Shown: piece by piece, positions 1,866 to 23,188 of the stretch | How positions within the stretch are numbered: position 1 is the first letter of the stretch | Layout: each line of letters starts with the position of its first letter | Position numbers and translations under genes: made by a program | From: Gammaproteobacteria bacterium | GTDB taxonomy: Bacteria > Pseudomonadota > Gammaproteobacteria > Acidiferrobacterales > Sulfurifustaceae | Length of the DNA: 40,675 bases | Reading direction: 5' to 3' | NCBI GenBank assembly: GCA_016194665.1 | Contig: JACQBD010000079.1 | Location: 1-40,675 of the forward strand | Notes under the pieces: generated by a model | Databases searched by the model: none | Told to the model about the DNA's origin: nothing | Seen by the model: only the letters and a program-made list of their open reading frames with translations

Positions 1866-3725
1866 ATGCGGGTGTCCCAAGATCATGTGAATAGTTTGCA
1901 GCGATGGTTAATCGCGGCTTGGCTATTGGCATGCAGCAGCGCGAGTTACAGCGAAACCAATACTCCTAGCGTGACGGCGCCGACCGAACCCGTCACCATC
2001 ACACTAATTCATTACAACGATTTGCATGCGCATCTCACCGCGCATGCCGATCGTGTGCCGGACGCCAAGCTCGGCGAATATGCGACGAATACAAAACTGG
2101 TGGAACGCGGAGGGTTGGCGCGTATCGCGACTCTTATTAAACGCCTGCGTGCCGAGAATCCGAATTCGGTGCTCATGAACATCGGCGATACATTTCATGG
2201 CGGCGTTGAAGCATTGTTCACTTTAGGCAACGCCGTCGTCGATCCGGTCAACGCTCTCGGTATCGATATCGGCGTGCCGGGGAATTGGGATTACGCCTAT
2301 GGTCCGTTGGTGACACGTTTGCGCTACGCCTCGCTCATGCCAGCCGAACAAAGAATGTTGGGCATGGCCTCCGACATGATGATGTCGACGATGTCCATCA
2401 AACGTCCCAATTATCAGAATCTTGCCGCCAATGTCAGCTACACCATGCCCTTCTTCAAAGCCGGCAAACCATTCTTACCGGCAACGTGGATGACGCAGCG
2501 CGCCGGCATCAAACTAGGTTTCATCGGCCTCAGCTCCGATATCGTGCCGCAGATGTCGCCGACGCTGGCCATGGGCTTGGCTTTCCTACAAGGCGAGGAC
2601 AATTATAAAAAACTCGTGACCCAACATGCGCAAGCTTTGCGCGCGCAAGGTGCACAACTTGTTTTCGTCATGAGCGAACTTGGCATACACAAAGACAAGC
2701 GCCTCGCCGATTTGTTGGCGCCGGGATTGGTGAATGTTTTTTTCTCCGCACACACGCATGAAGCTACTTTTACTCCGCTGGTTTCCGCGAGCGGCGCTTT
2801 GGTGGTGGAAGCCGGCAATGACGGTTATGTCGGGCGCATGAACGTTACGTTAAAATCAAAACAAACGCCGAGTTTTAACTGGCTGCTGTTGCCGGTGGAT
2901 AACCGCCTGCCGGAAAATCCGGCGATGAAAACTTTGGTGGATACCGCACGTGCACCATTTCTCGCGCCGCATCCCAACATCAAGCTGCCGATGCCCTACG
3001 CCGACGTCACGCTGACACAAGCCATTACTACCGTCGTCGGTCATAGCAAGGGCGCGCTCGACCGACGTCAAGCTTTGGAAAATACTTTCAATCGCGTATT
3101 CGCCGACGCTCTGCGTCAACGCGCCGATACACAATTGGCAATGACACCGGGTTTCCGCTTCGACAGCATAATTGGCGCGCAGGGTGAATTGTTTGAAGAC
3201 GATACCGTCGCCAACGGCGCGATTACGCTCGAAGACGTTTATCGTTTTTTCCCCGTGGTCTATTCATTGGCCACGGCGGAAGTTTCCGGTGAGCGGCTCT
3301 TGCACATCGCCGAACAAAGCTTAACCCAGGTTTATTCCAAAAATGCTTTTAAGCAGAGCGGCGGATGGTTTGAAGGATTTTCAGGGTTAGGATTAAAAAT
3401 AAATATTGCCGGCAATGATAACGCACGCATTAAAGATGCGTGGCTGACGGACGATCAAGCACCGATCGATGCGCAAAGCATTTACACCATCGCCGGCTGT
3501 CAACGTCCTGATGACGGCGCCGGTGTGTTATGCAGCTATAGCGGCTTTAATAAAGTGCAGGCGCTAATCAACCCGGCCACGGGCAAGGCTTGGAACGTAG
3601 CGGATTTATTTATCGACGTCTTAGCCACAGCTCCGTTGGCGGCGGCGGGCAAAAACCGCTTCACGGAACTCAGCCAAACGCCGGTTTGGCCGCAAGCGCC
3701 ATTCGTACAACCGCTCTGGCAATAA
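1866..3725 (+). CDS. bifunctional metallophosphatase/5'-nucleotidase family protein, SoxB-like (paralog 1)
   Basis: ITLIHYNDLHAHL, GDTFHGG, GVPGNWDYAYG, FFSAHTHEA metallophosphoesterase motifs; C-terminal 5'-nucleotidase domain; N-terminal signal-like sequence. Confidence 0.8.
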   Translation: MRVSQDHVNSLQRWLIAAWLLACSSASYSETNTPSVTAPTEPVTITLIHYNDLHAHLTAHADRVPDAKLGEYATNTKLVERGGLARIATLIKRLRAENPNSVLMNIGDTFHGGVEALFTLGNAVVDPVNALGIDIGVPGNWDYAYGPLVTRLRYASLMPAEQRMLGMASDMMMSTMSIKRPNYQNLAANVSYTMPFFKAGKPFLPATWMTQRAGIKLGFIGLSSDIVPQMSPTLAMGLAFLQGEDNYKKLVTQHAQALRAQGAQLVFVMSELGIHKDKRLADLLAPGLVNVFFSAHTHEATFTPLVSASGALVVEAGNDGYVGRMNVTLKSKQTPSFNWLLLPVDNRLPENPAMKTLVDTARAPFLAPHPNIKLPMPYADVTLTQAITTVVGHSKGALDRRQALENTFNRVFADALRQRADTQLAMTPGFRFDSIIGAQGELFEDDTVANGAITLEDVYRFFPVVYSLATAEVSGERLLHIAEQSLTQVYSKNAFKQSGGWFEGFSGLGLKINIAGNDNARIKDAWLTDDQAPIDAQSIYTIAGCQRPDDGAGVLCSYSGFNKVQALINPATGKAWNVADLFIDVLATAPLAAAGKNRFTELSQTPVWPQAPFVQPLWQ

Positions 3726-19464: not shown

Positions 19465-19492
19465 GGGAATAAACCGGCGGAGAGAGTCGTCT
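19465..19492 (+). promoter_or_regulatory. candidate ECF-type promoter upstream of the ECF sigma operon
   Basis: GGGAATAAA (19465-19473), ~16-bp spacer after GGAATA, CGTCT (19488-19492); resembles general ECF GGAAT..CGTC architecture and suggests autoregulation. Confidence 0.5.
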
Positions 19493-19531
19493 TTACACTC
19501 ATATTGAATCACTATATTACGCCCAAAATTT

Positions 19532-20080
19532 ATGGATGTTTTTAATTTCTTATGCCGCACGCGCGAAGCCAAACTTAGGCTCGAGCAACATCGGTTGCGA
19601 CTTTACCGCATTGCTTATTCCTGGACCCACCATGCCGCCCTCGCGGATGATTTGGTGCAAGAAACGCTGACCAAGGCGATGCAGAAATCCAGCCAGTTGC
19701 GCGACCCGAACGCCGGCGAGGCGTGGTTGTACAGTATCCTGGCCAATTGCTACCACGATCATTTCCGGCGCCATCGCGCGTCGGAAGAAATAGATAACAA
19801 TACACTGATTGATGAGTCCACCCCGGAGAAGGAGAGCAGCGAGCAAGAGATCGTCCTAAAGGTAAGGGCGGCAATCGCTAAATTGTCTGAAGGTCAACGC
19901 CAAGTCGTCACCTTGGTCGACATTCAAGGATTGAGTTACATGGAAGTCGCCCAAATTTTGAATGTCCCGATCGGCACAGTCATGAGTCGCCTGTGCCGCG
20001 CTCGGCAAACCTTAAAAGATTTATTAGCGGATCTCTCGCCCAAATTAGCTGACGAAGTAAAAATCCGGAGAATCAAATGA
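19532..20080 (+). CDS. ECF-type RNA polymerase sigma factor
   Basis: Sigma-70 region 2 (LADDLVQETLTKAMQKSSQLRDPNAGEAWLYSILANCYHDHFRR) and region 4 (LSEGQRQVVTLVDIQGLSYMEVAQILNVPIGTVMSRLCRARQ). Confidence 0.93.
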   Translation: MDVFNFLCRTREAKLRLEQHRLRLYRIAYSWTHHAALADDLVQETLTKAMQKSSQLRDPNAGEAWLYSILANCYHDHFRRHRASEEIDNNTLIDESTPEKESSEQEIVLKVRAAIAKLSEGQRQVVTLVDIQGLSYMEVAQILNVPIGTVMSRLCRARQTLKDLLADLSPKLADEVKIRRIK

Positions 20081-20784
20081 ATCAGGAAAAAAAGTTTTCA
20101 GACGAATTTATCAACGCCTTTGTCGACGACCAGCTGACGCTGGAAGAAAAGCAACAGGTATACGCGCAATTGTCCTCCGACGAAACGCTCAAATGGCGGA
20201 TTTGCGAATTGCGAAAAACCCGCGACCTAGTGGCCTTGGCTTATAAAGAACCGCCGATGCCGACGCGCGGCCTGGCGCCTTCCTTGGGTAAACGTAAATA
20301 CAGTCTCGGTGTCGCCGCTGGCTTGGCGTTGATGGTAGGAACCGTGTCAGGCTGGTTTCTGCATCAAACCCCTGCGCCGACAACGCTGAGCTCAGCGCGG
20401 CTTGCCGCGGGCGATGAAACCGCCAAGGTTTTAATTCATGTCAGCGATGGTCACGTCGATCACCTTAAGAACGCCCTGGACGAAGTGGAAAGCTTGATGC
20501 AGTACTACCGCGACTCCAAACAAACCGCGCGCGTGGAAGTTGTCACCAACGGCCAAGGTCTGAGTCTTTTACTGGCCAATGTCACGCCTTTCGCGGAACG
20601 CGTTCAGAGTATGCAAAAAAAATATCCTGGCCTAAGTTTCGTTGCGTGTCAGAACACGATCGAGCGTTTTCAACAGGAAACCGGTGTGGCGGTTAAGCTG
20701 TTGCCGGGGGTAATCGTCATCGATTCCGGCGTCGCGCAGATTATGCGCCGTCAGCATCAAGGCTGGGCTTATATCCAGGTCTAG
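20077..20784 (+). CDS. transmembrane anti-sigma factor fused to C-terminal periplasmic DsrE/DsrF-like domain
   Basis: ATGA overlap with the sigma gene; N-terminal anti-sigma-like FINAFVDDQLTLEEKQQV; single TM YSLGVAAGLALMVGTVSGWFL; C-terminal KVLIHVSDGH...LSFVACQNTIERF DsrE-like. Confidence 0.78.
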   Translation: MNQEKKFSDEFINAFVDDQLTLEEKQQVYAQLSSDETLKWRICELRKTRDLVALAYKEPPMPTRGLAPSLGKRKYSLGVAAGLALMVGTVSGWFLHQTPAPTTLSSARLAAGDETAKVLIHVSDGHVDHLKNALDEVESLMQYYRDSKQTARVEVVTNGQGLSLLLANVTPFAERVQSMQKKYPGLSFVACQNTIERFQQETGVAVKLLPGVIVIDSGVAQIMRRQHQGWAYIQV

Positions 20785-20817
20785 TCCTATTTCTTAAAAC
20801 TGGGAAAGAGGAGATAA

Positions 20818-21264
20818 ATGATGAATAAGCTTATGTCATTGTTATTGATCACTCTGGTCAGCTTGGGGATTAATTTGGGATTGGCGTCGGCGGAAGGCTA
20901 CACCAAACAGAAAGTCGTTTATCACGTCAACTTCGACGATGAAAAACAACTCAAGGCGGCGCTCGGCAACATACAAAATCATATTAACGCCGTGGGCAAA
21001 GATAACCTCGACTTAAGGGTTGTTATGCACGGCCCGGGAATCGCACTATTGCAAATAGCGAATAAGAATGCGGATTTCGCCGACAAGATTAGCAATTTAA
21101 AACGTCAAGGTATCCATTTCAACGTGTGCAACAATACGCTGCAAAGCAAGAAAATAAACTTCAAGAACGACCTGTACGATGTCTCGCAAGAAGATATTGT
21201 TCCCAGCGGCGTCGCTGAGATCGCGCAACTGCAGACGCAAGGTTTCTCCTATGTAAAGCCCTGA
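20818..21264 (+). CDS. secreted/periplasmic DsrE/DsrF-like family protein
   Basis: Signal peptide MNKLMSLLLITLVSLGINLGLASA; KVVYHVNFDDEKQLKAALGNIQNHINA...GIHFNVCNNTLQ. Confidence 0.8.
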   Translation: MMNKLMSLLLITLVSLGINLGLASAEGYTKQKVVYHVNFDDEKQLKAALGNIQNHINAVGKDNLDLRVVMHGPGIALLQIANKNADFADKISNLKRQGIHFNVCNNTLQSKKINFKNDLYDVSQEDIVPSGVAEIAQLQTQGFSYVKP

Positions 21265-21288: not shown

Positions 21289-21316
21289 AGCCCGCGACGT
21301 CTGCGGGCTTTTTTTT
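21289..21316 (+). terminator. rho-independent terminator
   Basis: AGCCCGC-gacgtct-GCGGGCT followed by T-tract. Confidence 0.88.
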
Positions 21317-21397: not shown

Positions 21398-23188
21398 ATG
21401 AAAGCTATTCAAATAAATAAATTTCTCAGGCTCGTTGGATTATTAGCGGTTATGTCAATTCCTTTGTCGGCAGCGGCCGGTAACAGCGGTCAAGTCACCC
21501 TTATTCATATCGGCGACATTCACGGCCATCTCATTGCGCGCCCGAATTTGCGCAGTGACGGCACCGGCCGTATGGAGGGCGGGGTGGCGCGCATGTATAC
21601 TAAGATTCAAGAAATTCGCCACAAAGAAAAGAATTCTTTGCTGATCAATACCGGCGATACCATCCAAGGTTCGGCCGAAGCCATGTTCACGCGCGGCGAC
21701 GCTTTAATTGAGGTGCTGAATCATTTCAAGATCGACGTGTTTACTCCGGGTAACTGGGAATTTGTGTACGGCACCGAACGTTTCCTTGAACTGTTTGCCG
21801 GTCCATCGCCCAAAGCACCGTGGAATGCAGTATCCGCCAATCTTTATTACAGCAGCATCAGTGAAGATCCCACCACGCCTTATCCGGATAAGACCGGTCT
21901 TTTCCCCAGCGAGCGCCCGAATGAACGCGTCATTCCGCCTTACGTCATTAAAAACGTCGGCGGCCTGAAAATCGGCGTTTTGGGATTCACCACCGATCGT
22001 GGCCCGCAAGTGGTGGGTAAAACGGTCGTTAAAGGCTTCAAGTTTTCCAAAGGCGACGCCGAGATCAAAGAATTTATAAAAATTCTGCGCACGCAGGAGA
22101 AAGTGGACTTGCTGGTGATGATCTCGGAACTGGGCTTGGCTAATAACATTCGTCTCGCCGAGGCCAATGAAGGCGTCGACGTAATTCTCTCTTCGGACAT
22201 GCATGAAGTCACGCGCAAGCCGGTGGTGACCAAGACCGGCACCATCATCGTCGAAGAAGGTCAGGACGGAACGGTGCTCGGCGAGTTGCGCCTAACTGTC
22301 GACAACGGCAAACTAAAAAACTGGGATTGGAAATTCCACACCATCGATACTCGCATTCCGGAAAATGAAATGATCGCGAAAGAGGTGATGCGAGTACGCA
22401 AAAGTTTCGTCGCCGGTCCGGATTTCAAGCAGCACGTCAATCCTTTCAACGGCACGCTGCTACCGCGCCCGATCGACACCGTCGTCGGCAACACCCAAGT
22501 GGCCTTGCACCGTTCCAATTTTTCGCATGAAAACATGCCCGCGGTCATCGAAGGTTCGTCGCATGATTTCCTCACCGATGCTTTTCGCGCGCAAGGCGAT
22601 ACCGATATCGGCGCGTTGCGCGGCTTCCGTTACGGCACGCACGTGCCGCCCGGCCCGATCAAAATGGAAGACCTGTATCATTTCATTCCCATCGGCCCGA
22701 TGATCGCGCGCGGCAATATCAACGGTAAAACACTCGTGGATCAAATTGAGAATGCCGCCGATGGATCGCTCAATCCGGCGGTCAACGAATGGACCGGCGG
22801 CTGGCTGTTCAATTTCAGCGGCGTGACCATGGACATCAATCCGTACGCCGCCCGCGGCGCGCGCGCCGCCAACATTAAAATCTTCAACCGTAAGAACAAC
22901 GCCTGGGAAGCTCTCAAGCCTGAGGGCACTTACAGCTACGCGGCGTACTATTACACGCGCGATCCGGACTTGATCAACGTCATTCCGGCGACGGATATTA
23001 AAGTATTGAAAGACGAGAAAGGTGCCAATCTCGACGGCGTCGAAGTAGTCGTGCGTTACTTGCAATCGCTGCCGAATAAAACGGTTAACCCGACACTGAA
23101 CCGCATCCGTTTAGTTAAGCCCTTGCCGGCGGACACATTCGGTAATCCGGAGATACAGCCTTGGCGCGGTGTGACGCCGGCTCCGTAA
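21398..23188 (+). CDS. metallophosphatase/5'-nucleotidase family, SoxB-like (paralog 2)
   Basis: VTLIHIGDIHGHL, GDTIQGSAEAMFTRGDALIEVLNHFKIDVFTPGNWEFVYG, ILSSDMHEVT; Sec-type signal peptide. Confidence 0.82.
   Translation: MKAIQINKFLRLVGLLAVMSIPLSAAAGNSGQVTLIHIGDIHGHLIARPNLRSDGTGRMEGGVARMYTKIQEIRHKEKNSLLINTGDTIQGSAEAMFTRGDALIEVLNHFKIDVFTPGNWEFVYGTERFLELFAGPSPKAPWNAVSANLYYSSISEDPTTPYPDKTGLFPSERPNERVIPPYVIKNVGGLKIGVLGFTTDRGPQVVGKTVVKGFKFSKGDAEIKEFIKILRTQEKVDLLVMISELGLANNIRLAEANEGVDVILSSDMHEVTRKPVVTKTGTIIVEEGQDGTVLGELRLTVDNGKLKNWDWKFHTIDTRIPENEMIAKEVMRVRKSFVAGPDFKQHVNPFNGTLLPRPIDTVVGNTQVALHRSNFSHENMPAVIEGSSHDFLTDAFRAQGDTDIGALRGFRYGTHVPPGPIKMEDLYHFIPIGPMIARGNINGKTLVDQIENAADGSLNPAVNEWTGGWLFNFSGVTMDINPYAARGARAANIKIFNRKNNAWEALKPEGTYSYAAYYYTRDPDLINVIPATDIKVLKDEKGANLDGVEVVVRYLQSLPNKTVNPTLNRIRLVKPLPADTFGNPEIQPWRGVTPAP

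Follow-up and report, generated by a model that had tools for sequence, protein, structure and literature searches.

How sulfur-oxidising bacteria sense sulfur compounds outside the cell is poorly understood, according to a study whose own regulators act on the cytoplasmic side (PMC11582611). The locus considered here, part of a 40,675-nucleotide stretch from a gammaproteobacterium of the Sulfurifustaceae (the window), encodes an ECF sigma factor, an anti-sigma factor and a secreted protein, and it raises the question whether an anti-sigma factor with a DsrE-like outer domain may carry such a signal across the membrane, and to which genes. Our reading, to which we give a probability of about 0.75, is that the locus encodes an autoregulated ECF26-type switch that drives thiosulfate oxidation, with an invariant cysteine of the DsrE domain as sulfur sensor and the sox genes in its regulon. 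Such a switch probably fills part of the gap in what is known of how sulfur oxidisers detect sulfur outside the cell.

Organisation of the locus

In Pfam the first gene product passes the cut-offs for both sigma regions, with 50.9 bits for region 2 and 61.5 bits for region 4, and it reaches 89.7 bits against the sigma70-ECF model TIGR02937 (cut-off 42.9); with regions 2 and 4 only and a length of ~180 residues, it has the make-up of an ECF sigma factor. Pairwise comparison gives 37-40% identity to a pSymA sigma factor (taken as RpoE6) and to RpoE6-like and RpoE1-like plasmid-borne sigma factors. The sequence-only reading had described a second ORF that overlaps the sigma gene by ATGA and encodes a protein with an anti-sigma-like N-terminus including a FVDDQL segment, no zinc motif and one transmembrane segment. 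This layout was borne out by sequence and hydropathy: the overlap lies at 20077-20080, FVDDQL is present, and the single hydrophobic stretch (residues 77-95) is immediately preceded by the basic residues KRK. A sequence scan of the anti-sigma factor found no HxxxCxxC motif, placing it outside the zinc-binding anti-sigma (ZAS) factors.

The third gene had been taken to encode a secreted DsrE-like protein, and so it does: its product exceeds the Pfam DsrE cut-off of 22.7 bits (33.7 bits), matches 1L1S by sequence (E 3.6e-13) as well as by fold, and has a signal-peptide-like N-terminus. The operon probably ends at the predicted terminator downstream of this gene. Coordinates are given in Table 1.

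Table 1. Features of the switch locus, in window positions
Feature	Position	Strand	Basis
ECF promoter GGAATAA-N15-CGTC (GGAAT-N17-CGTC), predicted, 40 nt before sigma start codon	19466..19491	+	upstream-region conservation
ECF sigma factor, 182 aa	19532..20080	+	Pfam Sigma70_r2 and r4_2 above cut-off
Sigma Cys73 codon (region 2)	19748..19750	+	invariant, 92/92 sigma partners
Anti-sigma factor (cytoplasmic anti-sigma domain, one transmembrane segment, periplasmic DsrE domain), 235 aa	20077..20784	+	model, fold match, alignment
Anti-sigma domain, residues 8-57, three helices	20098..20247	+	pLDDT ~90; helices 9-16, 22-32, 36-57
Anti-sigma Cys43 codon	20203-20205	+	Cys43 in 88/91
Transmembrane segment, residues 77-95	20305..20361	+	top hydropathy window of protein
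Periplasmic DsrE domain, residues 115-235	20419..20781	+	1L1S TM 0.91
DsrE-domain Cys191 codon	20647-20649	+	Cys191 in 91/91
Secreted DsrE protein, 148 aa	20818..21264	+	Pfam DsrE 33.7 bits; 1L1S fold TM 0.92
Secreted DsrE Cys104 codon	21127-21129	+	invariant in 11 aligned homologues
Intrinsic terminator, predicted, AGCCCGC-loop-GCGGGCT and T run	21289..21316	+	sequence reading

The DsrE domain of the anti-sigma factor

The proposal that the external domain is DsrE-like was upheld by structure prediction. In an AlphaFold model computed with 13 homologues as input, the outer domain (~115-235) has a pLDDT >90 and three N-terminal helices are confident, while confidence is low around the transmembrane segment. 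Foldseek matched the outer domain to 1L1S (MTH1491; TM 0.91) and to 2PD2 (TM 0.89), and the next matches were all of the DsrE family (SSO1126, Swol_2425 and, at TM 0.67, DsrEFH); TM values are normalised by target. As a single sequence the domain stays under the cut-off of Pfam DsrE (PF02635; 16.5 versus 22.7 bits), and its assignment therefore rests on the fold and not on the sequence score; we are confident, on the strength of the model, that the outer domain has a DsrE fold. In the model Cys191 closes a central strand (186-191) of the domain, which thus holds the conserved cysteine of DsrE proteins. Like Cys191, Trp230 and Tyr232 are invariant among the 91 full-length homologues.

Distribution among sulfur oxidisers

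Matches were found in 53 of 60 relatives. When 85,462 species genomes were scanned, 280 candidate stretches came up, and 183 relatives were confirmed among them. The architecture had been called uncommon, which proved wrong, as it is common among sulfur-oxidising beta- and gammaproteobacteria. Of these 183, 80 named loci were kept; their carriers include Sulfuricaulis, Acidiferrobacter, Candidatus Muproteobacteria, Thioalkalivibrio, Thiohalobacter, Sulfuricella, Sulfurimicrobium, Sulfuritalea and Sedimenticola, and nearly all named carriers are sulfur oxidisers. Of 83 cases, 82 have the sigma gene followed by the anti-sigma gene with the two within 60 nt of each other, so that the arrangement in the window is not due to chance. 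Three loci (L054, L057, L107) hold two neighbouring copies of the sigma/anti-sigma-DsrE pair.

Among 369 genomes sampled across the class, 67 encode a full-length anti-sigma-DsrE protein, and SoxY was found in 58 of these carriers versus 133 of the 302 non-carriers (Fisher p 1e-10, shared descent being ignored). The nine carriers without SoxY imply that sox cannot be the sole target everywhere. In a phylum sample the full-length fusion occurs in 3 of 399 genomes, all of the window's class; the other classes in that sample have DsrE proteins lacking an anti-sigma part. No full-length DsrE-bearing anti-sigma factor was found in a plasmid collection.

Promoter element

The predicted promoter in front of the sigma gene recurs with the switch. 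Of the 81 sigma upstream regions examined, which come from the named loci plus the window, 74 contain GGAAT-N17-CGTC (0.04 expected from shuffled sequence) and five more have the element with N16 spacing, while 24 carry a copy on the opposite strand that would serve the divergent neighbour. Together the 80 named loci hold 116 sites of GGAATA type, where 2.5 would be expected; 79 of the 116 lie ahead of sigma genes and at least 13 ahead of recognised secreted DsrE genes; others precede soxY or soxZ (L090, L095, L105, L110, L115) and a YeeE gene (L091). The site in L115 lies 49 nt before soxY and ~6 kb from the switch, so that it does not merely reflect a promoter region shared by divergent genes. 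A looser pattern was used for counting, as a strict one (NWA after CGTC) misses true sites including that of the window.

The element is the published ECF26 promoter, with GGAAT at -35 and CGTC at -10 (PMC6527743); the rpoE4 promoter has the same elements at 17-nt spacing (PMC6180224). The switch is therefore, by its promoter, best read as of ECF26 type.

Predicted regulon

In the genome to which the window belongs, a draft assembly of 197 contigs with 82% completeness, a pattern search gave 14 matches versus one for a reversed control pattern. One of the 14 is the site ahead of the sigma gene itself. Two more lie on one contig: a site at C169:3634 ahead of soxX-soxY-soxZ-soxA, where SoxX (TIGR04485), SoxY (TIGR04488) and SoxZ (TIGR04490) all score above cut-off, and one at C169:33673-33698 on the minus strand ahead of a gene for a YeeE/TsuA-like sulfur transporter resembling thiosulfate transporters. 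Others precede a SoxH-related metallohydrolase gene (C58) and a YeiH-family gene (C87); by sequence reading, C87 also has a site with 16-nt spacing that is oriented like a gene for a secreted rhodanese-like protein. The true soxB (876.6 bits) has a further GGAATA site, 97 nt upstream. Five of the 14 matches fall inside genes and are regarded as chance, and those near guaB and htpG, and L123, are ambiguous. A site at position 9970 of contig C43 (L223:3971) precedes an operon for a membrane protein and large multihaem cytochromes, possibly a further electron-transfer part of the sulfur regulon.

The same association is seen in relatives, of which 30 SoxY loci were compared. Of the 24 from carriers, 13 have a site on the same strand as sox, against none of the six from non-carriers (Fisher p 0.02), and in the 24 carrier loci there are 20 sites in forward and none in reverse orientation, with about 0.5 expected. 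In nine SoxY loci the site stands about 70-150 nt before soxB; in 11 of the 24 carrier loci no site lies within the stretch viewed. Sox genes adjoin the switch directly in seven of the 80 named loci (L081, L090, L091, L095, L096, L105, L110), and in an eighth they are 1.2 kb away. The link to sulfur that the sequence-only reading had drawn from the DsrE domain is thus strongly supported by the distribution, the sox neighbours and the shared promoters ahead of sox genes. Six genomes of named isolates or MAGs hold the strict motif 0-2 times each, mostly ahead of the sigma gene itself, and the wider regulon is therefore best supported near the window's own family.

Proposed mechanism and alternatives

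As long as no signal is present, the membrane-bound anti-sigma factor would hold the sigma factor through its cytoplasmic N-terminal helices. A reduced sulfur compound in the periplasm (thiosulfate, tetrathionate, polysulfide or a sulfite-derived compound are candidates) would give a sulfur group to Cys191, either directly or by way of the secreted DsrE protein, whereupon the charged anti-sigma factor would change shape or be cut and free the sigma factor. The latter would then read GGAAT-N17-CGTC promoters, raising its own operon and the secreted DsrE protein, and also soxXYZA, soxB, the YeeE/SoxT-type transporter, the SoxH-like hydrolase and the YeiH-family exporter, with a periplasmic rhodanese perhaps a further target. 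Binding of the two factors, the chemical nature of the signal and the release step are inferred. The DsrE homologue DsrE3A takes up thiosulfate on a cysteine from tetrathionate (PMC4175335), which provides a precedent for the chemistry proposed at Cys191, a residue that would most likely take up a sulfur group. A more far-reaching version, in which the anti-sigma factor stands for a hitherto undescribed class of outward-facing sulfur sensor and reads periplasmic sulfur through charging of the DsrE cysteine, with the secreted DsrE protein as relay and together with the Cys43/Cys73 set, and is a main transcriptional control of sox genes in beta- and gammaproteobacterial sulfur oxidisers, is tentative and in our estimate falls a little short of even odds.

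Near-invariant cysteines are also found on the cytoplasmic side (sigma Cys73 and anti-sigma Cys43, Table 1, and sigma Cys155, kept in 82 of 92 aligned partners), and a periplasmic model leaves them unexplained. Conserved cysteines on both sides of the membrane suggest a thiol or sulfur switch there. Alternatively, the locus may be a sulfur-oxidation switch with a signal other than sulfur on Cys191. Its DsrE domain could dock the secreted DsrE protein as the actual sulfur carrier, or the cytoplasmic thiols could set the switch, as might fit two alphaproteobacterial ECF26-like sigma factors having R or L in place of Cys73. Docking would agree with the linkage of the secreted DsrE gene to the switch, seen in most loci, and with its own copy of the promoter where it is divergent (in named loci), but in some loci no such gene lies nearby, and the invariance of Cys191, while the residues following it vary (Q192 in 42 and N193 in 39 of 91), fits a reactive residue. 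We regard this alternative as a serious one, with a probability of perhaps a third, and the sensing of sulfur at Cys191 remains our preferred reading.

It is improbable that the sox promoters are read by another sigma factor, which would leave the present system in control of no more than its own operon and the secreted DsrE protein. The scarcity of strict motifs beyond the sigma gene in several named genomes would agree with it, but the four other sigma relatives found in the window's genome all lack the motif upstream, sites ahead of sox genes are seen in carriers and in none of the six non-carrier loci, and sox operons directly adjoin the switch in several genera. That the sox-linked sites are read by this sigma factor and no other is what we infer from these observations. 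Outer domains of ECF anti-sigma factors are of many kinds. The least probable reading, and a quite improbable one, is that the sigma factor answers to general envelope or redox stress and that the DsrE fold is a structural relic devoid of sulfur chemistry. That diversity, and the periplasm-exposed cysteine by which ECF16 anti-sigma factors are thought to detect their signal (PMC8315932), might suggest it, but distribution and promoter targets concern sulfur oxidation.

Comparison with known systems

The nearest characterised systems are the ECF26 sigma factors RpoE4 (EcfR4) of Sinorhizobium meliloti and SigE of Starkeya novella, which respond to thiosulfate or to sulfite-generating compounds, by an activation mechanism described as hypothetical (PMC3511301, PMC6527743, PMC6180224), and so give a precedent for the response proposed here. 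Shared with the window are the -35 and -10 elements, the 17-nt spacing (rpoE4), the autoregulation (at rpoE4; proposed here) and an operon joining the sigma gene to that of a membrane-spanning anti-sigma factor with a periplasmic domain. However, the outer domain of the RpoE4/SigE anti-sigma factors is described as having some similarity to RsiW, not to DsrE (two plasmid-borne relatives have no Pfam match), their main target is sulfite dehydrogenase (sorT, sorAB) and not sox, and no secreted DsrE partner is described for them. In Hyphomicrobium denitrificans, SoxR and SoxT1B exert thiosulfate-responsive control of sox and sulfur transport genes, with a YeeE-type protein involved (PMC11582611), but there a repressor acts on the cytoplasmic side on a signal brought in by a membrane protein, whereas here a sigma factor would act and an outer DsrE domain would receive the signal. 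MTH1491 and ST0148 have the fold of both DsrE parts of the window, but these proteins and DsrE3A of Metallosphaera cuprina, stated to be cytoplasmic (PMC4175335), stand alone, with neither transmembrane segment nor anti-sigma part.

The suggestion of a previously undescribed sulfur-responsive system consequently holds in part. ECF26 sigma factors, their promoter and their sulfur link are known, as are DsrE sulfur carriers and SoxR/SoxT control of sox genes in an alphaproteobacterium. New, as far as the literature searched shows, are the DsrE domain as outer part of an anti-sigma factor, the secreted DsrE protein under a promoter of the same type and the predicted ECF-driven sox regulon in beta- and gammaproteobacteria. 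No DsrE-bearing anti-sigma factor was found in that literature, to which the 2021 ECF reclassification, which could mention one, does not belong; a "DsrE" in an excerpt of an S. meliloti paper was DsRed and was discarded. If correct, our reading would provide a direct outside-to-inside route for sulfur signals in a group that is large and of ecological importance (Sulfuricella, Sulfuritalea, Thioalkalivibrio, Acidiferrobacter, Sulfuricaulis) and a signalling role for DsrE proteins. The promoter and the cysteine of this route are defined, it has a partner protein, and all three are open to test.

Neighbouring genes and variants of the locus

The gene at 21398 was considered as an operon member and rejected, given the terminator, the lack of a motif upstream and its absence from that spot in the relatives examined. 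Nor is it soxB, as it reaches 167-177 bits versus a SoxB cut-off of 550 and the true gene lies elsewhere in the genome. In L043, L044, L046 and L060 the signal sequence of the secreted DsrE homologue is followed by a lipobox-like cysteine, which makes these proteins possible lipoproteins. In one family (L024-L037) a gene for a beta-propeller-like protein (YVANYNNS start) directly follows the anti-sigma gene in many loci, replacing the secreted DsrE gene; in Starkeya novella a YVTN beta-propeller gene lies near an ECF sigma gene (PMC6527743). The window itself contains two SoxB-like metallophosphoesterase genes of the 5'-nucleotidase family (21398-23188 and 1866-3725; about 157-177 versus 550 bits), with more on other contigs of the genome, and the one at 1866-3725 adjoins a gene for a secreted protein with a weak DUF302 match (931-1419; 18.8 versus 23 bits).
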